A DNA stretch of 64,000 nucleotides from Planctomycetota bacterium. Lineage in GTDB: Bacteria > Planctomycetota > Phycisphaerae > WQYP01. This document shows, one piece after another, positions 24,882 to 47,229 of this stretch. The position numbers and the translations under genes are program-made. The notes below the pieces were generated by a model. That model worked only from the letters and a program-made list of their open reading frames with translations, did not search any database and was not told where the DNA came from. Each line of letters starts with the position of its first letter. Position 1 is the first letter of the stretch. The stretch is taken from assembly GCA_021790385.1 (NCBI GenBank), contig JAJYDW010000012.1, positions 1-64,000 of the forward strand, written 5' to 3'.

Positions 24882-25739
24882 TCACGCCGTATCGCCTGCC
24901 GGTTTTGGCCTTACCGTCTGGGGTATTATCCCATCGCTGTGCACCTGCTGGGGAACACGCATCTGGAGCTTCCCGTGCGGGCGGCATTGGTTGTATATCG
25001 CTACCGCCTCCGCCACCGCAGGACCCACCATCGCCTTGCGGCTAAAGCTGATCCCCATCCCCAGTTCCTGCTTGAGAATCCCGTTGAGTCGTTCCGCTTT
25101 CCCATTCTCGTAACAGTGACTCTCTTCCGTCATGCTTATTCCCAGCTCCGCGGCCTGCAACTGCTTGATATACGCCTGGCAGCAGTATTGGCTGCCCCGA
25201 TCCGAATGGTGCACCGCATAGGCTCCAGCAGGTAATTGCTTGATCGCCTGGGCTCCGGCCCGGATCACGCCTTCCATCTCCAAGGTATCGCTGCTGTCGA
25301 ATCCCACGATCTTCCGACTATACGCATCCATCACCAGGCTCAAAGACATAAACCCTTCATCCGTGCGGATGTACGTTATGTCGCTAACCCATAGCTGATG
25401 CGGACTGGTCACCGGCATATTCTTGGCAAGGTTAGGATACACCGCAAATCCATGCCTGCTGTCGGTTGTGCGGACACCACGCTTGGGACGTTCTATGAGC
25501 ATATTGTGCCGCCTTAATAACGAAAAACACCGGTCTCGACCTAGCGCCACGCCCGCCACCTCCAACTCGGGTTGTATCAGGTACATTAACTTCCGACATC
25601 CCAAACGCGGCATATAACAGCGCTCCTTGCGGATGAGTTCCAGCACGAATGCTTCCTCCACCGTCAAACGTTCCCGCACCAGCCGCTGTTTGCAATAATT
25701 CTGCCGCGTCATGCCCACCAGTCGGCATAGCACCTTCAC
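24882..25739 (-). CDS. IS3-family OrfB transposase (integrase core)
   Basis: QLWVSDITYIRTDEGFMSLSLVMDAYSRKIVGF...VHHSDRGSQYCC...YENGKAERLNGILKQELG; DDE residues retained. Confidence 0.9.
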   Translation of the reverse strand: MKVLCRLVGMTRQNYCKQRLVRERLTVEEAFVLELIRKERCYMPRLGCRKLMYLIQPELEVAGVALGRDRCFSLLRRHNMLIERPKRGVRTTDSRHGFAVYPNLAKNMPVTSPHQLWVSDITYIRTDEGFMSLSLVMDAYSRKIVGFDSSDTLEMEGVIRAGAQAIKQLPAGAYAVHHSDRGSQYCCQAYIKQLQAAELGISMTEESHCYENGKAERLNGILKQELGMGISFSRKAMVGPAVAEAVAIYNQCRPHGKLQMRVPQQVHSDGIIPQTVRPKPAGDTA

Positions 25740-26137
25740 CCCACGCAGTTGCTGCTCTCCGACGGCGTGGACCGCCTCCCATCGGACTTTTTTTTAAAAC
25801 TCTCCACCTCCTGCCCCAACTGCTCGCAGGCCAGCTTCAAAAATGTCGCATTCAGCACATTCTCCGCTTGGGTTTTACCCAAGGCCTGCTCCAACTGCGC
25901 TATACGCTTTTTGTACTCCCGTATCCGATCTTGTTCGTCTGGCTTTTCCACCCGTACCACCTTCGCTTGTAAATGATTCCTACCGTAGTGTTTTATCCAT
26001 TTCTGTACCGTTGTCGCGCCTGGAATCCCGTGGTGCAACCGCGCCTGGGTAATCGAAGCAAATCGACCATCCTCCAACTCGGCAACCGCCTGCCTCTTGA
26101 AGCACTCACTATACCGCTTTATTACCCGTACCCGCAT
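25736..26137 (-). CDS. IS3-family OrfA (HTH)
   Basis: IKRYSECFKRQAVAELEDGRFASITQARLHHGIPGATTVQKWIKHYGRN. Confidence 0.85.
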   Translation of the reverse strand: MRVRVIKRYSECFKRQAVAELEDGRFASITQARLHHGIPGATTVQKWIKHYGRNHLQAKVVRVEKPDEQDRIREYKKRIAQLEQALGKTQAENVLNATFLKLACEQLGQEVESFKKKSDGRRSTPSESSNCVG

Positions 26138-26194
26138 ACCAAAACTCCTGATATTTCCATTGCCATAAGTGACAACCTATATCAGGACGTGACA

Positions 26195-26215: not shown

Positions 26216-26332
26216 TGCAACTCCTTCCGGGTCTGCGGCCCAAACACTTGAAACCCTCCCGCAAGATAAACACAACCCTGCGGAAGCCTGATACGCTTGA
26301 ATAATTTTAGCCGATGCCAAACGGTGCCACAA
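26216..26332 (-). promoter_or_regulatory. Promoter and conserved leader RNA, copy C
   Basis: TTGTGG (26332-26327), 17 nt, TAAAAT (26309-26304); leader with P1 hairpin at 26259-26283 and GGAAGGAG RBS. Confidence 0.75.
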
Positions 26333-27076: not shown

Positions 27077-28219
27077 TTATTTCCTCGAGCCTGCTTTGGC
27101 CGTGATGCTTTCGCCGGACGATGCCCGTCGGATAAGCTCCGCGCTAAGCTGGACATGGGTTGCCGGAAGTCCCGGTTCCTCCAGGCGCTGGCGCATCAAC
27201 CGATAGGCGGTCACGCCCAGTCCCGCAGCGGGTTGGCGCATGGTGGTCAGCGGCACCTGCAGGTGGGCAGCCATGGGTAGATCGTCAAAACTTCCCAGGC
27301 GTAGTTGCTGGGGAATGGCCCAGCCGTCCTCCAGAGCGCAGCGCATGATCGGGGCGGCCCGGGAATCGGAAACGACCAGCACGGCTTCGGGTTTTCGCTG
27401 GCGCAGTTTTTCCAGTACCAAGGTGTTGTTCCGCAGGTCAAGATGGTGTACCGCACTGTCGTCCGGCCGCAGGCCATGGGCCTCAAATGCCGCCATGTAG
27501 CCGGCGATACGCGCTTCCTGCGTGGGGTGGCGGAAAGTGCTGCCGAAAAAGTCGATTCTCCGGCAGCCCAGTCGAATAAAATGCTGGGTCAGGTGGAACC
27601 CGGCTCCGAAATTGTCGATTCCCACCAAATCCAGATGGCTGCGCGCCGGATAACGCACGATGTCGCCATCGATGAGCACCACGGGAATTCGGGCGGCGGC
27701 GAATTCTTCCACCAAGGCGACGGTCGGGGAGATATTATCGGCCGGCGAAATTTCCAGCGGCATTAGAAATACGCCGGCCACTTTTTGTTGAATCAACCGG
27801 CGCGCAATCTCCTGATAGCGCAACTGCAGGCCGGCGGCATTCGTATGGCCGTCCCATTGCGGATCCTGCAGCAGCATCATGGAGTGCTCCATACTGGCGC
27901 GGTGGGCCAGTTCACTGCCAAGCCCAGCAAAAATCGTCTGTTCCTGGTCCTGCCGGGCCAAGCCCAGCAACACAGCTCCGAAGGTGAGGGTGCGGCGCGA
28001 CGGAAGACCGATGACAACCGTGCCGGCTTTGCGGCCGCGCTGCAGCAAGTGTTCCGCCACCAGCCTCCGTATGGCGGCGGTGGCGGTAGGCCGCGATACA
28101 TCAAAAAGGCGGGCCAGTTCAAGTTCGGTCGGGATGCGTTCGCCGGGACGGAACTTTCCACTATCAATTCCCGCAAAGAGAAAATGATAAATCTTATTTG
28201 ATTTTCGCGGCACACGCAT
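27077..28219 (-). CDS. GntR-type HTH + LacI-type ligand-binding transcriptional regulator
   Basis: KIYHFLFAGIDSGKFRPGERIPTELELARLFDVSRPTATAAIRRLVAEHLLQRG; C-terminal VGIDNFGAGFHLTQHFIRLGCRRIDFFGS. Confidence 0.9.
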   Translation of the reverse strand: MRVPRKSNKIYHFLFAGIDSGKFRPGERIPTELELARLFDVSRPTATAAIRRLVAEHLLQRGRKAGTVVIGLPSRRTLTFGAVLLGLARQDQEQTIFAGLGSELAHRASMEHSMMLLQDPQWDGHTNAAGLQLRYQEIARRLIQQKVAGVFLMPLEISPADNISPTVALVEEFAAARIPVVLIDGDIVRYPARSHLDLVGIDNFGAGFHLTQHFIRLGCRRIDFFGSTFRHPTQEARIAGYMAAFEAHGLRPDDSAVHHLDLRNNTLVLEKLRQRKPEAVLVVSDSRAAPIMRCALEDGWAIPQQLRLGSFDDLPMAAHLQVPLTTMRQPAAGLGVTAYRLMRQRLEEPGLPATHVQLSAELIRRASSGESITAKAGSRK

Positions 28220-28635
28220 GAAATTACTCTCGTAGAGCCTGTCTGATAATCACGACGGGGACGAAGTGTGAATTATGCCAACTGGTGATCCGGTATGCAA
28301 TCCCGAAACGAATTGGATGCCTGACACGTTATGCGGCCCGTCTTGGAACACAGCAATGGAATATGATGATTCTTGAAATGCCCCAGGTCTTCCGCCAACG
28401 CCCCCCACGCTGGAAAATCATCTGCACCCATTCGCAGGCCGCCCCTGCACCAATAATCCTGTCACCATTCGCACTCCCGCATATTACATCACGCACCCGA
28501 TGAATGGGTCCGAAAATACGCCACTAGTCATGATTTATTGTAAACTCACATAAAATTTATTATGCATGTTTGCTGGCAAATCACTGTATACCTACAGCTT
28601 TATTGTAAAGCAATAGGAAATCCGGTGTTTTTTCC

Positions 28636-28752
28636 TTGTGGCGCCGTTTTGTATTGGTTATAATTCCTAGATGTATCAGGTTCTGCGGGGTTGTGTTGAT
28701 CCTGTGGAAGAGTTTCCAGTGTCTTGGGACGCAGGTCCGGAAGGAGTTTCAG
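28636..28752 (+). promoter_or_regulatory. Promoter and conserved leader RNA, copy A
   Basis: TTGTGG (28636-28641), 17 nt, TATAAT (28659-28664); P1 hairpin 28683-28707; GGAAGGAG RBS. Confidence 0.75.
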
Positions 28753-29946
28753 ATGTGCATGGTTAATGCAAAACGCATGGTTGTTTTGGCGGCGGCAGCC
28801 GCAGCCGCTTGTTTGGCGGCAAACGGCATGGTTCGGGCGGCGTCGCAATCGATTGTCGTGGCGAATCCAAGTTTCGAGGATAACTCGATCACGACGGGTG
28901 TGGGCTATGGGGCGATCAACGATTGGACCAGCTCTAACCTGTCCAACACAGGCTTGAACACGGTGGGCGGCCCGTTCGCCACGGGTACCACAATTCCGGA
29001 CGGCGGGCAGGTGGCGTTCATTCAGTCGAATTTTACGACTGGCTCGACCGGTGAATCGCTGAGCCAAACCTTATCTGGTTTGATCCCCGGCGAACAGTAT
29101 TGGTTTCAACTCTTTTATAACGCCCGGCAAAATTACAGCCAGCCGACACTCTCGGTAACATACGGAAGCCAAACTTTGGCCAATATTGCCAATATTCCCG
29201 TAACCAACTCCAACTACACGTTTCTCAATGTTCCATTTACCCCGGCCGCGTCATCCGGCACACTGACAATATCAAATAATGACACTACAACGAGCGGCAA
29301 CAGCTCGCTGTTGCTGGACGCGGTTTCGGTCATTGAGCGCGGGGCCGGTCAGGTGGTAATCGCCAATCCGAGTTTCCAGGGCAGCTCGGCCGACCTGCAA
29401 CTCTTCAACGGTGGTTACGGCTATTCACCGGCCATCGCCGGCTGGAACATCGGCGGCAGCAGCGTCTTCACTGGCATAAATAAGTTGGGGGGACCATTCT
29501 ACGATAACGGCGTCGCTCCGGATGGCACCAAAGTAGCGTACCTGCAACATATTAACACCAACCCCGCGACCACAATCAGCCAGACGCTCGGAGGCTTGAT
29601 AGCCGGGGATACGTACAAGTTGACCTTTTATTACAACGCGCGAGCGGCTACCGCCGATCCACTGATGGAAGTGAGCCTCGGTGGCACCACCTTCACGCCC
29701 ACCGGCGGCCTTGATGTGGCACCGGTCGGCGGGAGCAATCCATTTTATGAAGGGCAGTATTTTTACACGGCGACTGGACCCACTGCCGTGCTTAGCTTCG
29801 GCAACATCAATCCAACGGCGTCCGATTCGAGCCTGCTGCTGAACGATGTAAGCTTGCAGGTCGTTCCCGAACCAGCCACGCTGGGCCTGATGGGTGCCAT
29901 GGGCGTCGGCCTGCTTTTGGTGGGTCGTAAACGCACACGTGCTTGA
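28753..29946 (+). CDS. PEP-CTERM sorting-domain protein
   Basis: Signal peptide; two related NPSF-type halves (VVANPSFEDN / VIANPSFQGS); C-terminus VPEPATLGLMGAMGVGLLLVGRKRTRA. Confidence 0.92.
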   Translation: MCMVNAKRMVVLAAAAAAACLAANGMVRAASQSIVVANPSFEDNSITTGVGYGAINDWTSSNLSNTGLNTVGGPFATGTTIPDGGQVAFIQSNFTTGSTGESLSQTLSGLIPGEQYWFQLFYNARQNYSQPTLSVTYGSQTLANIANIPVTNSNYTFLNVPFTPAASSGTLTISNNDTTTSGNSSLLLDAVSVIERGAGQVVIANPSFQGSSADLQLFNGGYGYSPAIAGWNIGGSSVFTGINKLGGPFYDNGVAPDGTKVAYLQHINTNPATTISQTLGGLIAGDTYKLTFYYNARAATADPLMEVSLGGTTFTPTGGLDVAPVGGSNPFYEGQYFYTATGPTAVLSFGNINPTASDSSLLLNDVSLQVVPEPATLGLMGAMGVGLLLVGRKRTRA

Positions 29947-29958
29947 AAGCACGCTTTT
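29938..29958 (+). terminator. Candidate rho-independent terminator overlapping the stop codon
   Basis: CGTGCT-TGAA-AGCACG followed by CTTTT. Confidence 0.5.
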
Positions 29959-30208
29959 CCAAAGGAATACCGGTGGTCCATCGCTGCCGGCCCCTTTCAC
30001 TAGTGCAGCCGTGTGCTGTTTGTGCTTGGTGCTGATCGGCTGGCGGCGAGCCTACGGAATCAGCCACCAACCGCCAGGGTGGATACTCAAATCGTTCCCG
30101 TGTCGAAGTGCCGCCGATGAATGAGGGATGAGAGTGGGTACGAGGGGCAGGTATCGGTCATCGTTACGTATGGTGCCCGTGGTTTTCATGGACTGAAAGG
30201 AGATACCG

Positions 30209-31084
30209 ATGCGGCGGTCCCCACAGGGTTTTACTCTCGTGGAACTTTTGGTGGTGATTTTGATCATCGCCATTTTAATTGCACTGCTGCTGCCGGCGCT
30301 GGCCGCGGCGCGAACCCAGTCGGAAGAGGTGGTTTGCGCCGCAAACCTGCGATCGATCGGCCAAGGCATATTTGAATACGCCGATGAACAGCGCGGAGCG
30401 TATCCGATGCCCGCAACTACGTTTATACTCAATCAGGCCTCGGCCAGCGGCCGCTCCTGGCCCTTTGCCCAGCTCGCCGTCACGGTGTCTGGCAGTTGGA
30501 ACACGATTGTAAATTCCTCCGGCGGTGAGGTTCCCTGGGGCATGGGGGATTTATACCAAACGGGAATCATCACCACGCCGCAGGTGTTTTATTGCACGCA
30601 GCCGGGAATATGGGGGGATGTGGGGCCTTCCCAGAACAATATGGATTGGCAAGGTTTGGGCTACGCGCTGCAGCAGAACCCGCAGTGGCTGCAACATCCT
30701 CTGGCGGCCAATGGAATTAACTGGGGCAGCATTTATGTTGGGTACTGCTATTATTACCAATTTCCCAATACCGTAGCCAATCTGTGGCCCTCACCATATG
30801 TCTTGCCGCATCCGCAGCACCCATTTGTCCAGCAACCCACCAGCCCCCCTGGAGATCTGCTCATGTCCGACATCATTGCGCCCGGCAACGACAGCACCTC
30901 CCCCGGATGGTCCAACCACGTTACCACCGGTGCCCAGCTAAACCCCTACAACGCCTACGGCATACCGGGGCCGGCTCCGGATGGCGGAAACAGCCTGTAT
31001 AACGATGGCTCGGTGGAATGGCATCAGTTTTACAAGATGCATGCGATTGTGCAGGGCATTGACGGCGTGGAATTCTGGGATTAA
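30209..31084 (+). CDS. Prepilin-type N-terminal cleavage/methylation domain protein (pseudopilin-like)
   Basis: [32 protein letters not shown]-terminal [10 protein letters not shown]. Confidence 0.9.
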
Positions 31085-31151
31085 CGGTTTGTTCCGGCGA
31101 ATGGCCAGCCGCATGGCATCGAAATAATCATAACAACAAGAAGGGTGACTA

Positions 31152-34100
31152 TTGGTAAATCGACGGGATTTTTGCCGGCTGGCAGCGGCAGGCGCCGTGG
31201 CAGTCACGTTGCGGCCTGGAACAAGCGTGTTGGCCGCGGGCCATGCCGCTGGAACTTTCAAGGCTTCGGTGCGGCGCTGGTGGTTTCTGGGGCCGGTTCC
31301 GTGTGCCAATGCCGCCGAATTTAACGCACCCACGGCGGTTGAGCATGGGGCGGTCGACTTTGTCGTGCCAGCCACTATTCTGGGCCGACACCTGCAGTGG
31401 CAACCAGGAATTTCACCCGGCGACCATATTGATTTGTACGCGCGATATTTTCCCGATATTACGAATTATTATGCTTATGGCGGTATTCGTGTTTTCGCCT
31501 CGGAGGCAACCGCGGCCACGGCCAGCGTCGGGGTGGATAACGTGATGCGGCTGTTTGTCAACGGCAAACTGGAACTCGATTATTCATCCGGCGGCGCGGC
31601 GACGCCCGGCCAAAGGCGGGTCAGGATCAGCCTCCGCAAGGGGTGGAATACCGTTCTGGCAAAAGTATGGAACCTGGGCGGACCGTGGGGTTTTTATCTG
31701 GAACTGGAATCCCCGGTGGCGCTGCGAATCGAACCGACGGAAGCCCAAGTGCCCTACCGGGCCACGGGTTGGCGGAATGTGGCGTATTGGCGCGAGCCGG
31801 GGGTTCAAGTTGAAACCAGCATGTCCGAGTCGGCAGCGCTGAGCTCGGTGCATACCGCGCGGCGGCTCAATGACGGCCGGAAGTTTTCGCCCGGCGCTGA
31901 TCCCGGGTCCCTCTGCTGGACCACCGATCCGTATCACGATTTGCCCTGCTGGGTATGGTTTGGATTTGCCGGCCCGCGGCGTATCAGCCGCGTGATTGTG
32001 TATGGCGGTGAGGCGAATTTGCAGCCGGTGGAGTTCCTCGGTCAGACCTCGGATGACGCGGGGGCTACGCTGCGGGAGCTTTTTCGGGTGAATAACGCGC
32101 GGTTTGACCCGGCCACGCTTTCCTACAGTGTGGATTTCGAGCCGGTCGATACAGATAATTTTCGGTTGCTGATCGTGCGCAGCGCCGGGCCGGAGACCCC
32201 GCAATCCAACTGGGCGCAGCTTTCGGAGGTTGAAGTTTATGGGGATAATGCCCCGGTGGCCAAAAAGGCCGCCCAGCCGGACGATGGGGCGAGCGCGGCC
32301 TTGGTGCCCGCTTCACGATTTCAAAGCGACGCGGCCTTTTCGCCGCACGTTAAGGACAATGGACGAACGCTGGATATCTCCACGCCGTGGTACAAAATTC
32401 AACTGGACAAGTACCGCCCGCGCATCGCGTATCTGGCGTGGGACAGCCTGGGCCGGGGCAATCTGGGGGTTAATTTTCTAAGGGGCACCGGCGGGTTCCC
32501 ACGGTTGACGCTTCCAATTTATGGGGCCGTCGCGCCCCGGCCCGGCAGCCTGACGCGAAAAGGCAATGTTTTTGAATATGAGGCGGTGGGCGTGGCACCG
32601 GGCGTAGCGGTGCGCGTGGCTTTGAAAATGGGCGAGCGGGATTTTGACCTGGAGCTGACGGCGGTGGCGGATCGCAAAACCGCCCTGCGCGGCGGCCTTT
32701 TCCGCTTCGACTTCGCGGCCAACCAGACTCCCACGACTTTTGTCTGCCGGCCGGAGAAAATTTTCAATTTTGTCTCCATCCCATGCTATCTGCATGCCCC
32801 GGACTTTGGCACGGCGTTTATCACCAGCAGCAACAAAGACACCTGTTTTTATCGTACGCCAGCGGGAATTTTTCCGGCGCTGGATTACCATGTTGAAATA
32901 GCTTTGCAAATACCGGCGCGCCCGGATCGGCTTTGTGAACTAAACGCCGGCGTCTGGCGGGACACGCTGCACTTTGCCATTGAAACCATCCGTCCGCTGC
33001 CGGACCTGACCGCATCTGATGCGCGGCTGCGTCGACTGCCGGCCTGGGCGCTGAATCTGACACAGTGGCGACCGGACACGGGCATTATCAGCAACAGCGT
33101 GGTGAGTGTAAATTGCGGATTGTCGATGCTGTTTTATGCGGAAATGGCAGCGTTTTCGCCGATGCTGAAGGCGGGCATCTCGGCAATGGAATTGGTGCGG
33201 GCGTCGGTGCATCGCTATTTTAACGGAGCGCCGGGTTATTATATGCCGCCGCGCAATGTCTACGCGGCCCGCGGCGATTGGCAATCGTCACGGGAGACAC
33301 CGGCTTATTTGATTATCTGCGCCTGGTATGTGATACGTACCATCGGCGGCATGCCGGAACTTGGTGAAAGTCTTCAGGCTCTGGAATGTATCGCCGGTGC
33401 AATAGAATCGCTGGACACCAACGATGACGGCCTGGCGGACCACGGGAACGGGATGTGGTTTGATTGTTATAATATTCACGGCGCGGATGCCTATTCCAAT
33501 GCCGCCAATTACCGGGCATTTCGCTGCCTGGCGGAGTTGGAAAACTCGGCCGGCCGCCCGGCCATGGCGGCGCATTATCATCAGAACGCCGAGCGCATTA
33601 AAAATGTGTATATGAGGACGTTTTTTAATCCGGCTACCGGCGTGCTGGCGGGATGGCGGGATGAAAAGGGGCAACTCCATGATTACATGTTCCCATGGGT
33701 GAACGGTTTTGCGATTCACCAGGGACTGGTACCCGACCGGCAGGCTAATGCAATCCTGGATCGCCTGCTGGCGCAGCTCAAAAAGGACGGGTTTAAGTCG
33801 TACTGGTTTGGTTTGCCCACCAACCTGCTTCCTATTCACCCCGCCGATTATATACCACATACCAGTGGTGCCCCGACCAACCCATCGGGCACGGACACCT
33901 GGCAGCAATATATGAACGGCGGAGCATGTCCGACTTTCGTCTACTATGTTATTCAGTCATTTTACAAACTGGGACGACGCCGCGACGCGGAAAAAATGCT
34001 CTGGCCTCTGGTTGGCTCGTTTGAAAAGGGAACCTTTAACGCGGGTGTGCAGGCGTCGGCGAAATGGCCACGGCGCAATCCCATCAGCAGCGCGTTTTAC

Positions 34101-34298
34101 GTGTGGAACGGCTCGCAAGCCTCCGGCGAGGGATATTTACCGGAGGACTGGCAGGCCATGACGGCGATATTCACCGGGCACTATGGTATTGGCCTTAATG
34201 ACCAGGGCTGGCACTTGGAGCCTTGGTCGCCGCTAAAGGGGCAACAGATCAAATGGGGCCTGCCCTTTATGGGCAAGGTCGTGGAGAGAATCGGATAA
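31152..34298 (+). CDS. Tat-exported six-hairpin glycosidase-like protein with F5/8-type-C-like region
   Basis: TTG start after AAGGGTGA; NRRDFCRLAAAGAVAV Tat motif; C-terminal (alpha/alpha)-like region GDWQSSRETPAYLIICAWYVIRT...YFNPATGVLAGWRDEKG. Confidence 0.7.
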   Translation: MVNRRDFCRLAAAGAVAVTLRPGTSVLAAGHAAGTFKASVRRWWFLGPVPCANAAEFNAPTAVEHGAVDFVVPATILGRHLQWQPGISPGDHIDLYARYFPDITNYYAYGGIRVFASEATAATASVGVDNVMRLFVNGKLELDYSSGGAATPGQRRVRISLRKGWNTVLAKVWNLGGPWGFYLELESPVALRIEPTEAQVPYRATGWRNVAYWREPGVQVETSMSESAALSSVHTARRLNDGRKFSPGADPGSLCWTTDPYHDLPCWVWFGFAGPRRISRVIVYGGEANLQPVEFLGQTSDDAGATLRELFRVNNARFDPATLSYSVDFEPVDTDNFRLLIVRSAGPETPQSNWAQLSEVEVYGDNAPVAKKAAQPDDGASAALVPASRFQSDAAFSPHVKDNGRTLDISTPWYKIQLDKYRPRIAYLAWDSLGRGNLGVNFLRGTGGFPRLTLPIYGAVAPRPGSLTRKGNVFEYEAVGVAPGVAVRVALKMGERDFDLELTAVADRKTALRGGLFRFDFAANQTPTTFVCRPEKIFNFVSIPCYLHAPDFGTAFITSSNKDTCFYRTPAGIFPALDYHVEIALQIPARPDRLCELNAGVWRDTLHFAIETIRPLPDLTASDARLRRLPAWALNLTQWRPDTGIISNSVVSVNCGLSMLFYAEMAAFSPMLKAGISAMELVRASVHRYFNGAPGYYMPPRNVYAARGDWQSSRETPAYLIICAWYVIRTIGGMPELGESLQALECIAGAIESLDTNDDGLADHGNGMWFDCYNIHGADAYSNAANYRAFRCLAELENSAGRPAMAAHYHQNAERIKNVYMRTFFNPATGVLAGWRDEKGQLHDYMFPWVNGFAIHQGLVPDRQANAILDRLLAQLKKDGFKSYWFGLPTNLLPIHPADYIPHTSGAPTNPSGTDTWQQYMNGGACPTFVYYVIQSFYKLGRRRDAEKMLWPLVGSFEKGTFNAGVQASAKWPRRNPISSAFYVWNGSQASGEGYLPEDWQAMTAIFTGHYGIGLNDQGWHLEPWSPLKGQQIKWGLPFMGKVVERIG

Positions 34299-34402
34299 GG
34301 GGTCTTCGCAGCCACCAGTACCGCGGTCTGCAGCCGCATGGGAATACGGGCCATCAGGAACAGGGTGATGGCTCAGAATTGTTTTTTATTTGGAGTTAAG
34401 AC

Positions 34403-37400
34403 ATGACGAACATGAACCGACGAGATTTTGTGGAGCGCATTGGATTAAGCGCGGCGGGGCTGATGGTTTTGCAGGCTGGGCCGGCGGTTCGCGCGGCATC
34501 GCTGTCGCTGGCGAGCGAGGCCGGCGACGGTGCCAGGATGGCCGGTTTGTTTGCCACGCCGCCTTTCGATTGCGGACCGTGGGTGTACTGGTTCTGGCTG
34601 GATGTAAATGTCACACGCGCAGGGATTACTGCGGATATGGAGGCGATGAAAGCGGTGGGCGTGGCGGGTGTATTGATTATGGATGTGGATCAAGGCACGC
34701 CGCCAAGCTTCAATGGAGCCAAATTCGGCGATGCCAAATGGTACGAACTATTTAAGTTTGCCTGCCAGGAAGCGCATCGTCTGGGTCTGCACATCAACAT
34801 GACCAATGACGCCGGCTGGTGTGGCAGCGGCGGGCCGTGGGTAACACCGGAACTTTCGATGCAGCGCGTGGTGTGGAGCGACACCGCCATCGCCGGGGGC
34901 CGAAAATTTAATGATGTGTTGCCGCAGCCGCAGGCAAAGTTGAACTTTTACCGCGATATCGCCGTATTGGCCTTCCCTACACCGGCGCAAGGATATGCCA
35001 TCGGGAACCTCAAAGAACAAACCGACGTCAACACGGCGTACAATATTTTTGCCGCCGCAACATGGCCGACCCTTAAGCCCGGTCAAGAGATTTCCAGGAA
35101 GTCGATTCTAAATTTGACCCGTCAAATGGATCGCAACGGGCGGCTGACATGGACCGTGCCGGCGGGAAAGTGGACTGTGCTGCGGCTTGGCCATACCACT
35201 ACGGGGGTGGATAACCATCCGGCACCGGCGGGCGGATTGGGCTTGGAAACCGACAAGCTTAGCCGGAAGGCCACTATTTTTCAGTTCAATTCCCTGATGG
35301 AGCGAATCATCAGGCAGATTGGCCCATTGGTGGGTAAAACGCTGGTGTCCACGCATATTGACAGTTGGGAAACCGGTTCGCAGAATTGGACGCCGACGTT
35401 TGCCGCGGATTTCAAAAAATTACGCGGTTACGACCTAACGCCGTACCTGCCGGTATTTGCCGGACTGGTGGTGGAAAGCTTAGAAGTGTCTGAGCGATTC
35501 CTGTGGGATGTGCGCCAGACTGTGGGCGATTTACTGGTTGAAAATTATGCCGCCGCCATGCGCCAGGTCGCCAGGAAACATGGATTGCGGCTGTCTATTG
35601 AAGGTTATTTTGGTGAACCTGCCAGCGATATCCGTTACGGGGGACAGGCGGTTGAGCCGATGTCGGAATGCTGGTCCTGGCCACGGTTTGGGGCCATGGG
35701 GTCGGTCATAGAGATGACCTCCGCCGGGCACGTCTATGGCCACAATATCATCGGTCAGGAAACCTGTACGGCCGACGCTAATGAAAAATGGCAGGGCTAT
35801 CCGGCGGTGGTCAAGGATATTTGCGATTGGACCCTCGCGGAGGGCATCAACCGCTTTGTTTTCCATCGCTACGCCATGCAACCGTGGACCAACCCACACT
35901 ACGCGCCGGGCATGTCCATGGGACCATGGGGATTGCATTATGAGCGTACCCAAACCTGGTGGTATTTAACCAAACCATGGCACGATTATGTGGCGCGGTG
36001 CTGCTGGCTGCTGCGGCACGGTCATTTTGTGGCGGATGTGTGCTACATGCAGGCGGAAGGAATGCCTCGGACGTTTTCACCGCCGTCCAATATCCCGGGT
36101 AATCCGCCGCCCCGTCCGGGTTACAACTACGATGGATGTCCGGCGGAAGTGGTGCGCACGGATATGGAGTATAAAGCCGGGTTTTTAACCCTGCCCGGCG
36201 GCATGAGATATCGCGTTTTGGTACTTTCCAATTCCCCAACGATGAGGCCGGAACTTCTTAAGAAAATCAAACTGCTGGTGGATGCCGGCGCGACGGTCAT
36301 TGGTCCGCAGCCGCAATCTTCGCCCAGCTTGAGTAATTTCCCTCATTGCGATAGTGAGGTTCAAACACTAGCCGCGGAATTATGGGGGACGAAAAAAATA
36401 ATCACCGGTAAAACCGCGGAAGAGGTTCTCTCGGCACGCGGCATCCAGCCTGATTTTGCCTGTGATCAAGTTATGGTGCGCTGGACGCATCGGCAAACCG
36501 CGGATATGGATATCTATTTTGTGGCCAACGGCGAAGCCGCGGCGACACTGCCCTACGCCGGCCGGGCGATGCTCGCCAATTGTGCTTTTCGAATCAGCGG
36601 TGTCGCGCCGGAATTGTGGAATCCGGAAACTGGAACCATGCGCCCTGCGCCGGCGTACCGTGTTGAGGGTGGCCGAACGCACATACCGCTTGTTCTGGGA
36701 CCCAAGGAATCGGTCTTTGTGGTTTTTCGGAATGGTAACGCGCACCGTCCGGAGAATATTATTACCAGCGCCAGTCACAGCGGGAAGGTTTTCTTGTCTA
36801 CCGATGCGCCGGCACATGTGGTTATGCCAAAAAACATCCGAGTTTTACAGGCTATTTATGGCAAACCCGGCCAACCCAAACACCTGCGGAATGTAACGGC
36901 TATCGTGCAAAAACTAGTGGCTGCCGGCCACAATGGCTTTCCGGTGGTCCAGATCGCCGCCATCGGGGGCGACCCGGATCCATACGTGGTTAAGACTTTG
37001 GATATTAAGTACGAAGTGAGTGGTCGTATTGGGCGGGTTAGTTTTCAGGATGGCGGCTGGGTGTGGTTTCCCATCCCGGGAGGAGAGACTTTTCGCCGGC
37101 CTGCGCTGCTGGAGATGGAAAATGACGGGAACGTACGGGGGGTATTTACGGAGGCGGGTCGGTACCAGTTTGCGTTGGCCTCTGGTCGTCGGACCACAGT
37201 TGCGATTCCCAGCGTACCCCGGCCGATTTCCATCACCGGCCCATGGCGGGTGGCGTTTCCCGCCGGCTGGGGGGCTCCGGCGGAGATCCATCTTCAGCAC
37301 CTGATTGCCTGGAACAAGCATCCGGATGCGGGCGTACGTTATTTTTCGGGTACGGCGGAATATCGGGCCGAATTTATGACTCCGGCAGGCTTACCGGCAC

Positions 37401-37807
37401 CGCATCGACGCATATATTTGGATCTGGGCGAGGTTGCGGTCATGGCCCAGCCAACGCTTAATGGTCACGAGCTGGGAATTCTGTGGAAGCCGCCATTTAA
37501 GGTTGACGTTACCGCGGTATTGCAGCCAGGCCGCAATCAACTTCGCGTCCGCGTAACCAATCTGTGGATTAACCGGATGATCGGAGATGAGCAACTACCG
37601 CCGGACTGCGACCAGGCTCCGAATGGTCATTTGCGTAAGTGGCCGCAATGGCTGCTCGATGGCAAGCCCAGCCCGACCGGGCGATTTACATTTACTACCT
37701 GGCGGCTATGGGGTAAAACTGACCCATTGGCGGAATCTGGCTTGATCGGTCCGGTTCAACTAATCTTCGCTGAGACCGCAACCATTTTGAAAGGCAACCT
37801 GAAATGA
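34403..37807 (+). CDS. Tat-exported GH106-like alpha-L-rhamnosidase
   Basis: MNRRDFVERIGLSAAG; PFDCGPWVYWFWLDVNVTRAGITADMEAMKAVGVAGVLIMDV; C-terminal galactose-binding-like ILWKPPFKVDVTAVLQPGRNQLRVRVTNLWINRMIGDEQ. Confidence 0.8.
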   Translation: MTNMNRRDFVERIGLSAAGLMVLQAGPAVRAASLSLASEAGDGARMAGLFATPPFDCGPWVYWFWLDVNVTRAGITADMEAMKAVGVAGVLIMDVDQGTPPSFNGAKFGDAKWYELFKFACQEAHRLGLHINMTNDAGWCGSGGPWVTPELSMQRVVWSDTAIAGGRKFNDVLPQPQAKLNFYRDIAVLAFPTPAQGYAIGNLKEQTDVNTAYNIFAAATWPTLKPGQEISRKSILNLTRQMDRNGRLTWTVPAGKWTVLRLGHTTTGVDNHPAPAGGLGLETDKLSRKATIFQFNSLMERIIRQIGPLVGKTLVSTHIDSWETGSQNWTPTFAADFKKLRGYDLTPYLPVFAGLVVESLEVSERFLWDVRQTVGDLLVENYAAAMRQVARKHGLRLSIEGYFGEPASDIRYGGQAVEPMSECWSWPRFGAMGSVIEMTSAGHVYGHNIIGQETCTADANEKWQGYPAVVKDICDWTLAEGINRFVFHRYAMQPWTNPHYAPGMSMGPWGLHYERTQTWWYLTKPWHDYVARCCWLLRHGHFVADVCYMQAEGMPRTFSPPSNIPGNPPPRPGYNYDGCPAEVVRTDMEYKAGFLTLPGGMRYRVLVLSNSPTMRPELLKKIKLLVDAGATVIGPQPQSSPSLSNFPHCDSEVQTLAAELWGTKKIITGKTAEEVLSARGIQPDFACDQVMVRWTHRQTADMDIYFVANGEAAATLPYAGRAMLANCAFRISGVAPELWNPETGTMRPAPAYRVEGGRTHIPLVLGPKESVFVVFRNGNAHRPENIITSASHSGKVFLSTDAPAHVVMPKNIRVLQAIYGKPGQPKHLRNVTAIVQKLVAAGHNGFPVVQIAAIGGDPDPYVVKTLDIKYEVSGRIGRVSFQDGGWVWFPIPGGETFRRPALLEMENDGNVRGVFTEAGRYQFALASGRRTTVAIPSVPRPISITGPWRVAFPAGWGAPAEIHLQHLIAWNKHPDAGVRYFSGTAEYRAEFMTPAGLPAPHRRIYLDLGEVAVMAQPTLNGHELGILWKPPFKVDVTAVLQPGRNQLRVRVTNLWINRMIGDEQLPPDCDQAPNGHLRKWPQWLLDGKPSPTGRFTFTTWRLWGKTDPLAESGLIGPVQLIFAETATILKGNLK

Positions 37808-39246
37808 CCACCCGGCCGGTACACCATCAACTCAAAGTTGGAATTTTTGGCGTCGGCCTGGCGGCGTACTGGCCGCAATTTGCGGGGCTGAGGCAGCGTT
37901 TGGACGGCTACGTCACCAAGGTGGCCGGTCGTTTGTGCAGGCCTGGCGTGGAACTGGTGAATCTGGGCTTAATCGATACACCGGAAAAGGCTTTCGACGC
38001 CGGCCATCGGTTTCGCCAGGCGGATGTGGACATCATATTTCTCTACGTTACCACGTATGCACTTTCGTCGGTGGTTCTGCCGGTGGTGCAGCGGGCCAAA
38101 GTGCCGGTGATTATCCTGAATCTACAGCCTGATCATGCGATTGATTATGATCGATTCAATAAGATGGGAGATCGTACCCGCATGACCGGCGAATGGCTGG
38201 CCTTTTGCTCGGCATGCCCGGTTCCGGAAATCGCCAATGTGTTTCGGCGGACCGGGGTGAATTTCCATCAGGTAACGGGCGTATTAGATGGAGATTCGAA
38301 TTGCTGGAATGAAATTTCTGACTGGTTGGATGCCGCCGAGGTAGCACACACCATGTTTCATAATCGTTTGGGTCTGCTGGGACATTATTATGGGGGCATG
38401 CTGGATATATATACGGACCTCACTCGCCAATGTGCTGTCTTCGGTGGGCACATTGAAATGCTGGAGGTGGGGGAACTGGCCGCTTTGGCGGCAAAAGTGT
38501 CGAGATCGGACATGGGCCGGCGGGTTCGACTGTTTCAGCAGAAATTTATCATTCAATCGGATTGCAGTGATGCCGAACTGGCTCGCGCCGCCCGCACTTC
38601 CATCGCGCTGGATCGTCTGGTGGAGAACCATGGCCTTGGGGCCATGGCGTACTACCAGATGGGGTTGGGTAACGCGGCGGAAGAAAATACAATGACTTCG
38701 ATCATACTTGGTACATCATTGCTGACCGCCGGCGGTATTCCGGTGGCGGGAGAATATGAGGTCAAGAATGTACAGGCAATGAAAATTATGGATAGCCTTG
38801 GCGTTGGCGGTTCGTTCACGGAATACTACGCCATTGATTTCAAAGACGACGTGGTGTTGATGGGCCACGATGGCCCAGGCCATATTGCCATTGCGCAGGG
38901 CAAACCCCGGGTGCGACCTCTGCGTGTATACCACGGCAAAGTCGGGCGTGGTCTTTCGGTGGAGATGGCGGTCAGGCATGGCCCGGTGACGCTTCTGTCT
39001 GTGGTGGAAAGCGCGGATGACCGGCTCAAACTGCTGGTGGCGGAGGGGCAGTCAGAAGCTGGGCCGATTCTGGCCATTGGTAACACCAACAGTCGCTATC
39101 GATTTTCCATCGGAGTTCGTGAATTTATCAACCAGTGGAACAGTCATGGTCCAGCCCATCACTGTGCTGTGGGGGTGGGCCATGTGGCAAGTAAGATTGA
39201 TAAACTCGCCAAACTGCTGGGAGTGCTGACCGTGCGGGTTTGTTAG
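37804..39246 (+). CDS. L-arabinose/L-fucose isomerase-family protein
   Basis: GGIPVAGEYEVKNVQAMKIMD...MGHDGPGHIAIAQGKPRVRPLRVYHGKVGRGLSVEMAVRHGPVTLLSVV...GPAHHCAVGVGHVASKIDKLAKLLG; ATGA overlap with the GH106-like gene. Confidence 0.85.
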   Translation: MTTRPVHHQLKVGIFGVGLAAYWPQFAGLRQRLDGYVTKVAGRLCRPGVELVNLGLIDTPEKAFDAGHRFRQADVDIIFLYVTTYALSSVVLPVVQRAKVPVIILNLQPDHAIDYDRFNKMGDRTRMTGEWLAFCSACPVPEIANVFRRTGVNFHQVTGVLDGDSNCWNEISDWLDAAEVAHTMFHNRLGLLGHYYGGMLDIYTDLTRQCAVFGGHIEMLEVGELAALAAKVSRSDMGRRVRLFQQKFIIQSDCSDAELARAARTSIALDRLVENHGLGAMAYYQMGLGNAAEENTMTSIILGTSLLTAGGIPVAGEYEVKNVQAMKIMDSLGVGGSFTEYYAIDFKDDVVLMGHDGPGHIAIAQGKPRVRPLRVYHGKVGRGLSVEMAVRHGPVTLLSVVESADDRLKLLVAEGQSEAGPILAIGNTNSRYRFSIGVREFINQWNSHGPAHHCAVGVGHVASKIDKLAKLLGVLTVRVC

Positions 39247-39269
39247 TAGCAACACGAAAGGAGAAGTAA

Positions 39270-40583
39270 ATGGCGGCAAATCCGGCACTGGGTGTGGTAT
39301 TTCATTGGATCGGCGGGTTAGCCTCGGCGAGTTTTTATGTGCCGTATCGCAAGGTGCGGCATTGGTCGTGGGAAACGTATTGGCTGGTGGGAGGATTTTT
39401 TTCATGGATTATTGCCCCGGTAGTTTTTGCCACGCTGCTGGTGCCGGATTTCTGGCGTGCAATTTTGAGTCCAAAATCCGAAACCATCCATTATTTCAGC
39501 AATACAATACAACTGCACAATAGTGGTATCCTCCTGCTAACCTACATGTTCGGTGCGTTGTGGGGATTGGGCGGATTAACCTTTGGCTTGACTATGCGTT
39601 ACCTTGGTATTGGACTGGGAATGGCCATTGCGCTGAGCTATTGCGCCGCTTTTGGCACGCTGATGCCGCCGATTTTTAACGGTTCGATTGTGCATATTGC
39701 CCATACGCTTTCCGGGCAGATCATTTTATTGGGGGTGGTGGTATGTCTGCTGGGCATTGGCCTAAGCGGGGCGGCGGGAATGGCCAAGGAAAAAGAAATG
39801 CCGGAAGCGCAGAAAAAAGCTACCGTGAAGGAGTTCAACTTTGGTAAAGGCATTCTGGTAGCCACGTTCTCGGGGATTATGAGCGCGAGCTTTGCCTATG
39901 GCCTGGCGGCGGGCACGCCGATTAATGTCATGGCCCGACATCTGTTGGCGCAGCATCACCGCGCTGTATTTTGGGATGGTCTGCCGGCGTTGATTGTCGT
40001 ACTGTTGGGCGGATTTACCACCAATTTCATCTGGTGCGCGGTTTTGCACCTGCGACATCGCAGTGCCCATGAATACCTGGCCTCCAGGGCCAGGGCGGAT
40101 GAAAATCGCCTGGTGACGGCGGTGGATGGTCCGGGTTATACCGAGCTGCCGGAAGCTTTACCTGCGGTGAAGGCTGCTGACAGCCGGCGGATTCCCGTTC
40201 CACTGCTGCTCAATTATGCCTTTTGCGCCGTAGCGGGTACGCTGTGGTACCTGCAGTTTTTCTTTTATACCATGGGGCAAACGCAAATGGGGCCGTATAA
40301 ATTTTCCGGGTGGACGCTGCACATGGCCAGTATCATTATTTTTGCCACATTGTGGGGGGTAGTGCTGCATGAATGGAAAGGCTCGAGCAAACGTACGCAT
40401 ATCATCATCGGCGCAGGTTTGGCGGTGCTGATTGGCTCGACGGTAATTGTGGGCTATGGCAATTATTTAAAAATCAGGCAAAAGACATCCGCGCCGGCGG
40501 TGCATAAAGCACAGGCGGCCCTGCGGTCCCAGGGAGGTTTCAGGGCGAAGGATTCATTGGCGAGTGTGTGGAGACTACCATAA
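39270..40583 (+). CDS. L-rhamnose/proton symporter RhaT-like transporter
   Basis: GVVFHWIGGLASASFYVPYRKVRHWSWETYWLVGGFFSWIIAPVVFA; LWGLGGLTFGLTMRYLGIGLGMAIALSYCAAFGTLMPP; about 10 TM. Confidence 0.88.
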   Translation: MAANPALGVVFHWIGGLASASFYVPYRKVRHWSWETYWLVGGFFSWIIAPVVFATLLVPDFWRAILSPKSETIHYFSNTIQLHNSGILLLTYMFGALWGLGGLTFGLTMRYLGIGLGMAIALSYCAAFGTLMPPIFNGSIVHIAHTLSGQIILLGVVVCLLGIGLSGAAGMAKEKEMPEAQKKATVKEFNFGKGILVATFSGIMSASFAYGLAAGTPINVMARHLLAQHHRAVFWDGLPALIVVLLGGFTTNFIWCAVLHLRHRSAHEYLASRARADENRLVTAVDGPGYTELPEALPAVKAADSRRIPVPLLLNYAFCAVAGTLWYLQFFFYTMGQTQMGPYKFSGWTLHMASIIIFATLWGVVLHEWKGSSKRTHIIIGAGLAVLIGSTVIVGYGNYLKIRQKTSAPAVHKAQAALRSQGGFRAKDSLASVWRLP

Positions 40584-43500
40584 TGTTCAGCAGTGCAGTG
40601 GTTTATACACGACGTATATTTTCCAAGTTGTGGCTATTGGTGTTTGTGGCCAGTATGGTTGTCGGTGGAAGATTATATGCAGGAACCATTGCGGCACCGA
40701 TTCATCTGCGATGTGATGGGTCGCACAATCCAGAGGCAATAAATTCCACCGAGCCGTTTTTGAGTTGGGTCGTGCCATGGAAACGTCGAGGAGAGACGCA
40801 AAGTGCCTATCAGCTTTTGATTGCCGGCTCACGGGCGCTGCTGGCTGCCAACAAGGTCAATTTGTTTGACACGGGCAAAGTTTTCAGTTCGCAGTCTGTC
40901 AACGTTCAATACGTGCTCCACGGTACGCCGCCACTGGCGTCCGGGAGGCGTTATTTCTGGAAGGTGCGCGTGTGGAACCAGGCGGGAGTGGAATCTGCCT
41001 GGAGCAAGGTAAACTATTGGCGGGAAGGCTTGTTGTCGCATGGAAATTGGAACAAGGCCCAATGGATCGGTATTCCACGTCCGCGCCAAAGCATGGCTTT
41101 GCATCCGTGTTTCTGGATCTGGTACCCGGAAGGATCGCCAGCCCAGGCTGCCCCGGTCGGTTCGCGCTATTTCCGCAGGATTATTAAACTTCCGGCCCGG
41201 CCGCGGCTGGTTTCGGCAACATGCACCATGACCGCAGATAATGCTTTTGTTATGCGGATCAATGGTCATCGCGCCGCCAGTGGCAGCAATTTTAACACGG
41301 CACCAATTACGCAGGTAACGGAGCTTTTTCATCCCGGGCGCAATGTCGTGGATTTAACGGCGGTGAATCAGGGCCGCACACCCAATCCCGCCGGCCTTAT
41401 CGGCGATCTGCATTTTGTATTTGCGCATGGCAAATCCCTGGACATTCGCACCAATGCACGCTGGCAAGCAGCCCGGCAGCCGAACCGGGGTTGGAAATCA
41501 TCTCTGGTGCTGGGCCGCTATGGCATGGGGCCGTGGGGCCAGGTGGGCGTATCGACGCGCCGGCAATCCGCGGTTTACCTGCGGCACAAATTTACACTGC
41601 GTGCTCCCGTTGAACGAGCCATTGTGTATTTCTGCGGTCTGGGCTTAAGCAAGCTCTATTTTAACGGTCACGCCGCCAGTCACAACCAGCTTTCTCCACC
41701 GTTGAGTTGGTATCCCAAGCGGTGTTATTATGTTGCGTACAATGTAACCAAGCTGTTGCGACCGGGCAGCAACGTCATGGGCGCGATTCTAGGTAATGGT
41801 CGCATGTATGGTATGCCGGGCTACACCATCAACATTCCACCACGGATGATTTTGTTGTTGCGTATCCGCTATGCCGATGGGTCCAAGGCCGTGGTTGTCA
41901 GTAATAATCAATGGAAAGAAACGGAACACGGACCGATCCGGATGAACAATGAATACAATGGTGAAACCTATGACACTCGCATGGAAATGCCCGGCTGGGA
42001 TACCGTGGGTTTTGATGCCGCCGGATGGAAACCTGCCCGATCGGTGCATTCACCGGGTGGACGTCTGGTGGCCGAATGTCAGCCGCCGATTCGGGTGACG
42101 CAGGTGATTCATCCGGTCGCGGTACTGCATGTCGGCAAAGGCCGGTGGATTTTCGACATGGGCCAGAATATGGTGGGCTGGTGTGAGATTCATGTGAATG
42201 GTCCAGCGGGCACAACACTGGTGCTGCGGCACGCGGAGGCGCTGACCCGCGACGGCCATCGCTGGATGCCGGCCCTGGGGCCAGGCCGACGCCTGATTGC
42301 CGCAGAGAAGGCCCACCCTGGCGGACTGGGACTGTACACCGCGAATCTTCGCTCGGCCCAACAAACCGACACGCTGATTCTTAACGGCAAGCCCATCATC
42401 TGGCATCCGATTTTCACCTATCACGGTTTTCGGTATGTGGAATTGATGGGTTATCCGGGTCGGCCGAATCGTTCCACCCTGGAGGGCCAGGAAGTGCACG
42501 ATGAGTTGTCGGCGGCCGGCGGGTTTGCCTGTTCGGACCCGTTGGTGAATCAGATTTATCATAATTGTAAATGGGGAATCCAGGACAACTACCGCAGCAT
42601 TCCGACCGATTGTCCGCAGCGAGATGAACGCCAGGGATGGATGGGGGATCGCAGCGCGGAATCAAAGGGTGAAATGTTCATTTACAATGTTGAGCGATTT
42701 TATGATAAGTGGTTGTGGGATATCCAAGATGGGCAAAAACCCGATGGGGACATCGCCGATGTCAATCCGCCGTATTGGAATATCTACAGCCACGACGTAA
42801 CCTGGCCCGGCACGTTCATCATGGTGGCAGACCATCTTTACGTGCAATATGGGCAAACTGCTCCTATCCGGGAGCATTATGCGGCCATGGTTCGGTGGGT
42901 CGATTATCAGATGAAAATGGTTCACCAGGGGATTGATTCGAATGGCGGCTTCGGCGACTGGGATTCGCCGCCGCATGCCCATTCCACCAACATTGGCTCG
43001 CACGATCCCAACCGCAGCACGCCAGGCCCGCTGCTGGCTACGGCCAGCATGTATAAGTATCTGCGTATTATGGCCAGGTTTGCCGGGTTATTGCATAAAC
43101 CAGCCGATCAGCGGCGCTGGTTGGCTGATGCCAGGAACCTGTACGCGGGCTTCCAGACCCTGTGGGATGCCAAGGGTGGTTTCTATGGCAATGGTTCTGA
43201 TACTTCCTGCCTTCTCCCGCTGGCGGTGGGAATCATTCCAGCCGCCCGGCAGGCGGCAGTGGAACATCGTCTGGTCTGGCTGATTCACCAGCATCAACAT
43301 GGGCATTTGTATTGCGGCCTTATTGGCATGCAATGGGCATTTGCGGCGTTAAACTGCATTCACGAAACACCTCTGGCCTGGACATGGCTTAATAAGACTA
43401 CGTATCCAAGTTACGGTTACATGATCAAACACGGTGCCACCACCCTATGGGAAAACTGGAACGGCAACACTGCCGGCTCGGGTATGAATTCGATGAATCA

Positions 43501-43891: not shown

Positions 43892-43893
43892 TT

Positions 43894-46224: not shown

Positions 46225-46338
46225 TTGCAATGCAATTTACGATCTGTTATGATATGGCTTATCGAAGGTTGCAGAGTTGTGTTGATCCTGCGGCATGGTT
46301 TCAAGTGTTTTGGGCCACAGGCCCGGAAGGAGTTACGT
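46225..46338 (+). promoter_or_regulatory. Promoter and conserved leader RNA, copy B
   Basis: TTGCAA (46225-46230), 17 nt, TATGAT (46248-46253); P1 hairpin 46269-46293; GGAAGGAG RBS. Confidence 0.75.
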
Positions 46339-47229
46339 ATGTTTATGGGTAACAGGAAATGTATGGTTGTGCTCATGGGGCTGGCGGCATCGGCGTTGGC
46401 GCTCGCCCCGCCGATCGCGCCACCGGCTGCGGCCTCGATCACGCTGCCGGTCTTGCCGTCTGGACTGATGGTGAATTACGAGTCCGCCAATTACGACGCC
46501 AGCACCGGTGTTTGGACTGACACCTCCGGCAACGCCAACAACGCCAGCGTGGCCAATGCTGCTACCTATAACCAACTTTCCTCAAACGGTACGCCCACGC
46601 TGGTTACCAATGCCACACCGAACGGGTCGTCGGCGGTCCAATTCACATTCTCGGCGACCGCGCCGGGGACGCTCGGCCAATCGCTTGGCCTGACGACACC
46701 GCTGAGCTCCAGCATAGGCTTCACGATTTTCGCCTATATATTGCCGTCATCCGCGATGGCCACGGCCAATGGCGGATTTGTGGGAGGGCAGGGAGGCTCG
46801 CTTGAATACCGTCTCGCGAATACGTTCCATCAGGACCTGCTTGTGGAGGACACTGCAGATTTGGGCATGTCCAGCACCGCCCTGTCCGACGCCAGTTGGA
46901 ACAATATCAACGTCACCGCCAGCAGTGTTGGGGGTGGCGGTGGATATTTCCGCTTCAACGGAAGTGCAGATGGCACCACCACCGCGCCGAGTGGCGCCTT
47001 TAACCCGATCCAGGCGATAGGCGACGGTAATGTCAATGGTACCGAATACTTCGCGGGGGAGATCGCGGGGTTGCAGATTTACAGCGGCGAATTGACCGGT
47101 GCCCAGCGAACGACCGTGGAGACTTATTTTACCGATCTCTACGCCATCCCCGAACCCGCCACGCTGGGCCTGCTGGCGGCTATGGGTGTCGGACTGCTTT
47201 TGCTGGGTCGTAAGCGCCCACAAGCGTGA
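46339..47229 (+). CDS. PEP-CTERM sorting-domain protein with LamG/ConA-like domain
   Basis: MFMGNRKCMVVLMGLAASALALA...SIGFTIFAYILPSS...AGLQIYSGELTGAQR...IPEPATLGLLAAMGVGLLLLGRKRPQA. Confidence 0.92.
   Translation: MFMGNRKCMVVLMGLAASALALAPPIAPPAAASITLPVLPSGLMVNYESANYDASTGVWTDTSGNANNASVANAATYNQLSSNGTPTLVTNATPNGSSAVQFTFSATAPGTLGQSLGLTTPLSSSIGFTIFAYILPSSAMATANGGFVGGQGGSLEYRLANTFHQDLLVEDTADLGMSSTALSDASWNNINVTASSVGGGGGYFRFNGSADGTTTAPSGAFNPIQAIGDGNVNGTEYFAGEIAGLQIYSGELTGAQRTTVETYFTDLYAIPEPATLGLLAAMGVGLLLLGRKRPQA

Follow-up and report, generated by a model that had tools for sequence, protein, structure and literature searches.

A putative cis-acting RNA leader family upstream of PEP-CTERM genes in an uncultured family of Planctomycetota

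What is the conserved stretch between promoter and start codon at three loci of one planctomycete contig, and does it act as an RNA on the genes behind it? The window, by which we mean the whole stretch of DNA analysed, comprised positions 1-64,000 of contig JAJYDW010000012.1 (assembly GCA_021790385.1, Planctomycetota bacterium). The loci, termed copies A, B and C, were located at 28636-28752 (+), 46225-46338 (+) and 26332-26216 (−), where the initial annotation had placed them, and the promoter with an exact 17-nt spacer that it had described could be read directly in all three. On the plus strand, copy A showed a −35 hexamer TTGTGG at 28636-28641 and, after 17 nt, a −10 hexamer TATAAT at 28659-28664; copy B (46225..46253, +) showed TTGCAA, 17 nt and TATGAT (46248-46253), and copy C (26304..26332, −) TTGTGG, 17 nt and TAAAAT. 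The geometry of the copy A promoter was repeated in B and C and in the related genomes G002 and G004. Its −35 hexamer has only three of six matches to TTGACA, and the promoter is therefore absent from the list of a consensus promoter scan. The three copies aligned over the leader, the Shine-Dalgarno (SD) site and the first codons, with the leader, the SD-containing CCGGAAGGAG and the loop TTGTGTTKA in common, as had been reported. In copy A, CCGGAAGGAG lies at 28737..28746 (+), and it was invariant in the seven close copies found by BLAST, three in the genome of the window, three in G002 and one in G004, all from the same genus. The leaders of A and B were 79% identical. Stronger conservation of leader than of protein was correctly noted for A/B and also held for B against the G004 copy, but not for B against its G002 orthologue, with the gene at about 98% and the leader at 84%. 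In this last pair (B leader 46256-46338; G002 locus L015, 3292-3374) the usual pattern is reversed, and the G002 gene carries a nonsense codon.

The leader of the three copies folds into a 12-bp hairpin closed on GUGUU, followed by a linker, a short hairpin and CCGGAAGGAG. The first hairpin, P1, had been drawn as 8 bp around a 9-nt loop; folding and covariation in relatives favoured 12 bp closing the pentaloop. In copy A it occupies 28681..28709 (+), with the arms TTCTGCGGGGTT and GATCCTGTGGAA and the loop GTGTT at 28693-28697, and it begins 16 nt after the −10 hexamer, so about 9 nt from the predicted mRNA start. Copy B P1 (46267..46295, +) has 12 positions per arm with one A-C mismatch and the loop GTGTT at 46279-46283, and copy C P1 (26257..26285, −) carries the 9-nt stretch TTGTGTTTA, one change from TTGTGTTGA. 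The SD-side hairpin, P3, was as described perfect in B (GGGCC-ACA-GGCCC, 46312..46324, +, followed by the SD AGGAG at 46328-46332) and imperfect in A and C, as also in the G002 copy G002_1. Folding of copy A gave a weak 4-bp GGAC-GCAG-GTCC directly 5' of the SD (28727..28738, +), at a position equivalent to the copy B hairpin and to P3 of the wider family described below, where the hairpin recurs with other sequence. Compensatory change, which had been seen in the three copies, was not borne out at this range: the seven closest copies gave one two-sided pair, equal to shuffles, and their remaining substitutions were mostly one-sided G-U changes. Since covariation is not significant in the close copies alone, relatives were needed. 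Folding energies of single sequences were likewise unremarkable, with z of −1.0 (A), −0.6 (B) and −1.7 (C), and ordinary for the close copies with the exceptions of the G004 copy and G002_2. Kissing of the P1 and P3 loops in the three copies was considered and dropped, the loops being mismatched in G002_2.

PEP-CTERM proteins are proposed exosortase substrates and are thought to form part of the exopolysaccharide matrix. The products of the genes behind A and B belong to this class by their signal peptide and C-terminal PEP-x-x-L-hydrophobic-RKR tail. Protein A (28753..29946, +, 397 aa) combines a signal peptide, an HpiC1/choice-of-anchor C-like part and a VPEPATLGL tail, and passes TIGR02595 with 22.4 bits (cut-off 16). 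Protein B (46339..47229, +, 296 aa) has a laminin-G-like domain and gave no NCBIfam match; its tail IPEPATLGL...GRKR was read directly and aligns with that of A. A significant BLASTP alignment between the two was confined to the last 30 residues, their bodies being unrelated. Placement before PEP-CTERM genes, as claimed for all three leaders, was found for A and B and not for C, whose gene is cut by an IS3-type element (24882..26194, −; OrfA 25736-26137, OrfB 24882-25739) inserted about 20 nt after the ATG (26215-26213, −). The element ends with TGTCACGTCCTG, and over about 340 nt on its far side no PEP-CTERM gene was seen to resume. Copies A and C, unlike A and B, also have DNA in common upstream of the promoter, so that the A/C pair looks like a duplication. 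The concern that the leaders are merely parts of recently duplicated genes would thus apply to A/C but not to A/B. Copies A and B flank a rhamnose-utilisation cluster (27077-46074 of the window) with a GntR/LacI-type regulator, which adjoins A on the opposite strand, a GH106 rhamnosidase, an isomerase-like protein, a RhaT symporter and a GH78-type rhamnosidase. Given this gene arrangement beside it, leader A may head a longer (rhamnose) operon. The G004 copy comes after rhamnosidase, GH92 and sugar-transporter genes.

A covariance model built from the seven close copies (R1) was run on 28 genomes of the family. Such a search had been suggested, and it yielded distant copies with unlike but still pairing stems before PEP-CTERM genes. 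Outside the training set, R1 matched G025:C323 (1.5e-8), G002:C3 (2.8e-8), G000:C61 (2.4e-6), G004:C60 (1.3e-5), G015:C109 (4.2e-5) and, weakly, G027:C40 (0.038). All of these precede PEP-CTERM ORFs except G002:C3 and G000:C61, where SD and gene are lost; for the G015 copy the contig ends before the ORF tail is readable. The low-scoring R1 matches L052 and L054-L061, without the context of hairpin, SD and PEP-CTERM gene, were rejected. The loop TTGTGTTGA was found on the differing stems TCTCGGGG/CTCCGGGA, CGCGGA/TCTGCG and GCCTCTGC/GCGGAGGC, and a search with the loop pattern added three copies in genus g4 (G023) with the stem GGCYGCAG/CTTGCAGCC, so that genera g1, g2 and g4 share the loop although their stems differ. 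Besides these three bridging leaders, the exact-loop pattern TTGTGTTGA...GGAG gave mostly chance matches. In 17 aligned copies of the A/B/C class, 91.5% of the cells were paired as compared to 77.1% in shuffles, and covariation, which had been expected of further copies, was present with 36 two-sided cells against 9.1 in shuffles; these alignments, and those of the wider class below, were fitted to the structure and favour it, a concern that is limited by slid controls (here at most 16 two-sided cells) and by agreement with single-sequence folds.

The exact TTGTGTTGA was present in every A/B/C-class copy with an intact gene behind it, a link to which the three G023 copies, having been found through this very pattern, contribute no independent evidence. 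Copies with a changed loop were all broken loci: TTGTGTTTA in C (IS3 insertion), TTATGTTGA in G002_2 (nonsense codon in a gene about 98% identical to B) and TTTTATTGA in the orphan copies of G000:C61 and G002:C3. The orphans (G000:C61:6475-6557, −, and G002:C3:671-753, −) retain promoter and P1 without an SD or a PEP-CTERM gene, and would represent either a decayed leader or a stand-alone RNA. The one in G002:C3 is located after the orthologue of window ORF 43894-46074.

Comparison of the DNA preceding about 70 PEP-CTERM genes of G000, G004, G023 and G025 revealed a second, commoner leader. It consists of P1 with an NYGUU pentaloop, a linker around ACCGCAG, a hairpin P2 of the form CCCGCC-CGGTT(C)-GGCGGG, an AT-rich linker, and P3 (GCTCCC-...-GGGAGC) abutting the SD, followed by the ATG. 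A model built from 12 such sequences (R2) had matches in at least 22 of the 28 family genomes, with at least 12 in the genome of the window, at least 16 in G023 and at least 19 in G025, and none in 272 genomes of other families of the class at E <= 1e-4. In a pattern scan of named genomes, this leader was restricted to MAGs that carry the label Planctomycetota, among them one labelled as Phycisphaera mikurensis. The single R2 match in the window (33529-33614, +, E 0.035) falls within an ORF and was attributed to chance. Among 72 aligned R2 matches, 93.1% of the cells were paired (72.8% shuffled, at most 53.1% slid), 252 cells were two-sided against 65 in shuffles, with two-sided changes in all 21 pairs, and covariation amounted to 0.462 against 0.160. 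Hairpins P1, P2 and P3 were also recovered for many members when sequences were folded singly and independently. Variation affects every one of the ten P1 pairs in this class, while the pentaloop is kept: of 55 pentaloops, 50 have G at position 3, 51 have U at position 4 and 43 have U at position 5. The CCG of the linker is complementary to the CGG of the P2 loop and both show almost no variation, the compensatory variants being CCU:AGG (L207) and CUG:CAG (L197); this candidate pseudoknot pairing was not significant against shuffles when the register was set automatically. Promoter enrichment upstream of these leaders was barely above shuffles (7.02 versus 6.90), good hexamers being visible in a subset only. 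In A, B and C, and at the best promoters of the wider class, the leader is placed between promoter and start codon.

Several features connect the two classes. The GUGUU of A, B and C fits the pentaloop pattern of the wider class, and at loci with a recognisably good promoter the −10 hexamer is separated from P1 by 16-17 nt in both classes. The G023 leaders combine a P1 bearing TTGTGTTGA with P2 and P3 directly behind it. R1, trained on close copies only, had already weakly listed G023:C356 (0.35) and G025:C234 (0.22). A model of the A/B/C class that included the bridging members (R3) matched wider-class leaders on which it had not been trained, namely G001:C347 (8.4e-6), G001:C182 (1.5e-5), G004:C7 (7.1e-5), G003:C86 (1.5e-4) and G023:C190 (4.7e-4), then G000:C27 and G004:C81, a cross-finding that is partly circular through the three bridging G023 leaders in its training set. 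In the reverse direction A, B and C, which have no P2, were absent from the R2 list. We regard the A/B/C class and the wider class as one family on these sequence features. The picture of three local copies was consequently sound in that the leaders are real and too narrow in its extent, the family being wider and one of the three loci disrupted.

The link to PEP-CTERM genes was assessed on loci L160-L207, which were chosen by RNA score alone. Of 37 complete ORFs at the leader ATG, 35 encode PEP-CTERM proteins, 30 by pattern and five by eye (L181, L202, L204, L167 and L189); some of the 37 loci are orthologous to each other, so that the number of independent events is smaller. The two other ORFs are unrelated (L196) and prepilin-like (L194). 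In the genome of the window, all 11 checked R2 matches (of at least 12) precede PEP-CTERM genes, one of them by eye. At L194 (G002:C101), a wider-class leader and a PEP-CTERM-like start, MLSKSRSTILLAAAG, are joined to the prepilin-like (GFTLVEL) protein, as though a different gene had acquired this 5' end by exchange.

Because covariation, a conserved loop, a fixed position and the gene association coincide, we attribute these leaders to a structured cis-acting RNA family, with a probability of about 0.93. The surmise of a cis-acting RNA before surface-protein genes is upheld by covariation at many loci, by the near-exclusive link to PEP-CTERM genes, and by reading frames and indels that behave as in non-coding DNA. 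A translated leader, in which an upstream ORF or an N-terminal extension accounts for the conservation, could appeal to the frames of A and B, which are open back to the −35, and to several wider-class leaders (L108, L111, L142 and L154), where an SD and ATG precede P1 and the frame is open across it. The reverse complement is equally open, however (41/33/44 versus 42/40/51 of 64), leader lengths modulo 3 are mixed (35/17/12), the P2 loops are either 5 or 6 nt long, and stems that change on both sides do not follow a codon pattern. G002_1 differs from A, and C from the remaining copies, by one-base indels, which break the frame in C and G002_1. On open frames, lengths and P2 loop sizes, a coding reading was rejected and we consider it highly improbable. 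The same small chance is given to a shuffling cassette devoid of RNA function, in which gene 5' ends are alike only because they were recently duplicated or recombined. It would fit the upstream DNA shared by A and C, the similar leader, start and C-terminal tail that A and B place around unrelated bodies, and leaders L112 and L113 of the window's own genome, which stand before duplicates of one gene. Duplication yields no compensatory changes, though, and distant copies keep the pairing and not the sequence, members differing in all three stems (for example L110 versus L112).

More serious is a constitutive leader without regulation, in which P1 blocks 5'-end-dependent decay, as in ompA, and P3 keeps the SD free. 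In its favour, the distance of 16-17 nt from the −10 hexamer places P1 close to the 5' end, covariation preserves a P3 that abuts the SD, and PEP-CTERM proteins are numerous and exported. A leader that only stabilises could do without a conserved loop, yet the pentaloop retains G-U-U/C and TTGTGTTGA persists on stems that differ; the CCG linker and P2, including the CGGU loop, are also retained. We hold this explanation to be unlikely as a full account, bearing in mind that very similar traces would be expected of a structure that only stabilises or exposes the RBS. A riboswitch responding to a metabolite or second messenger, with P1 and P2, perhaps joined by the CCG linker-CGG loop pseudoknot, as aptamer and P3/SD as expression platform, is a decidedly poor prospect. 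The high copy number before exported proteins and the tandem arrangements recall GEMM-I (PMC6456294), and linker and loop are nearly invariant with two compensatory variants. Against this, the linker-loop pairing was not significant compared to shuffles, P2 is altogether absent from A, B and C, the large conserved core of the usual aptamer kind is lacking and no Rfam riboswitch matched.

Within the structured leader family, the first 80 or so bases are probably an RNA control element for a whole class of matrix proteins, serving dozens of genes in one uncultured family. That the leader coordinates translation of surface proteins, as initially proposed, is plausible because a hairpin abuts the SD and the best genomes hold at least 12-19 copies each. 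Transcription would start just upstream of P1, placing at the mRNA 5' end a hairpin whose stem sequence is almost free while the pentaloop N-Y-G-U-U is kept. Most family copies then present the second hairpin P2 with its CGGU(Y) loop, and P3 ends directly at the SD. Control would most likely be post-transcriptional, via access to the SD and/or mRNA decay: a putative shared trans-acting factor would read the P1 loop, and P2 where present, the P3/SD region would set the ease of loading of the 30S ribosome, and many exported matrix proteins could be tuned together. For this mechanism we see even odds; the transcription start, the existence of the factor and the sign of control are what we infer from the sequences. 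A bolder version, in which one protein or small molecule reads the NYGUU hairpin (with P2 where present) across dozens of mRNAs and switches the planctomycete PEP-CTERM matrix proteome as a unit, making the leaders an undescribed leader or riboswitch class with a dedicated regulon, is advanced tentatively, at somewhat below even odds.

In leaders controlled by CsrA/RsmA a hairpin stands beside the SD; the motif recognised by CsrA is GGA, usually within a loop. The planctomycete leaders resemble them in the SD-adjacent hairpin, in a genome with two CsrA copies, but differ in the conserved loop NYGUU, and CsrA does not track leader presence: 27 of the 28 family genomes have it, usually in two copies, whether or not they carry the leader. 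Hfq had no match in any of the 28. Neither was retained as a discriminating trans factor, CsrA being near-universal and Hfq nowhere in these genomes; CsrA is a possible factor, not a specific one. In ompA, which encodes an abundant envelope protein, a hairpin near the mRNA 5' end lies upstream of the RBS. The planctomycete leaders likewise have a hairpin near the predicted mRNA 5' end upstream of the RBS, but unlike the ompA 5' UTR stabiliser (Arnold, Yu and Belasco 1998, as cited in PMC3997798) their structure recurs before dozens of different genes with the loop sequence kept.

For proteobacterial PEP-CTERM genes, Haft et al. 2006 described an upstream sigma-54/PrsR DNA motif, and left many upstream regions outside the described class unexplained (PMC1569441). 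The two cases are alike in that a shared upstream element marks most PEP-CTERM genes of a genome as a regulon. The earlier motif is a DNA site with a −24/−12 promoter, confined to Proteobacteria, whereas the planctomycete leader would be transcribed, has a secondary structure that reaches the SD, and comes with a sigma-70-like promoter wherever a promoter is visible. The conserved part of A, B and C lies downstream of −35/−10 hexamers 17 nt apart, a layout that does not readily fit a −24(GG)/−12(GC) element. GEMM-I riboswitches number 17 in Geobacter sulfurreducens, some in tandem, and the GEMM-Ib (cGAMP) leaders there belong to genes for extracellular structures (PMC6456294). The planctomycete elements resemble these in being 5' leaders present in many copies per genome, some in tandem, and differ in consisting of three simple hairpins ending at the SD without a match to Rfam riboswitches.

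Comparison with Rfam, which had been recommended, identified no family: Rfam 15 gave no match in the window at gathering thresholds, relaxed scans of copy A and ten wider-class loci gave only chance or off-target matches, and neither the GEMM covariance model nor other Rfam riboswitch models matched. The open papers searched, with few subscription papers and no preprints covered, held nothing relevant on an RNA element for PEP-CTERM genes. The kind of element, a cis-acting leader RNA, is known; the family, its loop and its link to a protein-sorting class are not described in the literature searched. Our verdict is that these leaders form a family of cis-acting RNAs, hitherto undescribed, that belongs to a putative PEP-CTERM regulon and adds to Rfam a family that it lacks, from an uncultured bacterial lineage. 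How PEP-CTERM expression is coordinated outside Proteobacteria, unanswered in 2006 (PMC1569441), is now directly testable, as the analysis provides a covariance model that marks the regulon, a specific loop for mutagenesis and a bait with which a trans factor could be captured.

Finally, some arrangements of the leaders stand apart. Two wider-class leaders stand in tandem ahead of a single PEP-CTERM gene, at a distance of about 110 nt, in G025:C234 (L154, 348-550), G015:C80 (L167, 1393-1589) and G020:C74 (L205, 2003-2199); at least in L205, the ATG frame of the first leader runs through the second. In L108, L111 and L142 (G000 and G004), a strong SD and ATG (AAGGAGG..ATG) lie ahead of the wider-class leader, and the short upstream frame of L108 ends just past the main ATG. 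A coupled upstream ORF is possible in this subgroup. Other PEP-CTERM genes are preceded by a hairpin such as CCGGCC-ATGCGGTT-GGCTGG within an outer stem, matched by neither R1 nor R2. This type was seen in L138 (G004:C140) upstream of 2217, 3349 and 9167, in L145, and in L150 upstream of 1303, and is possibly a third class.
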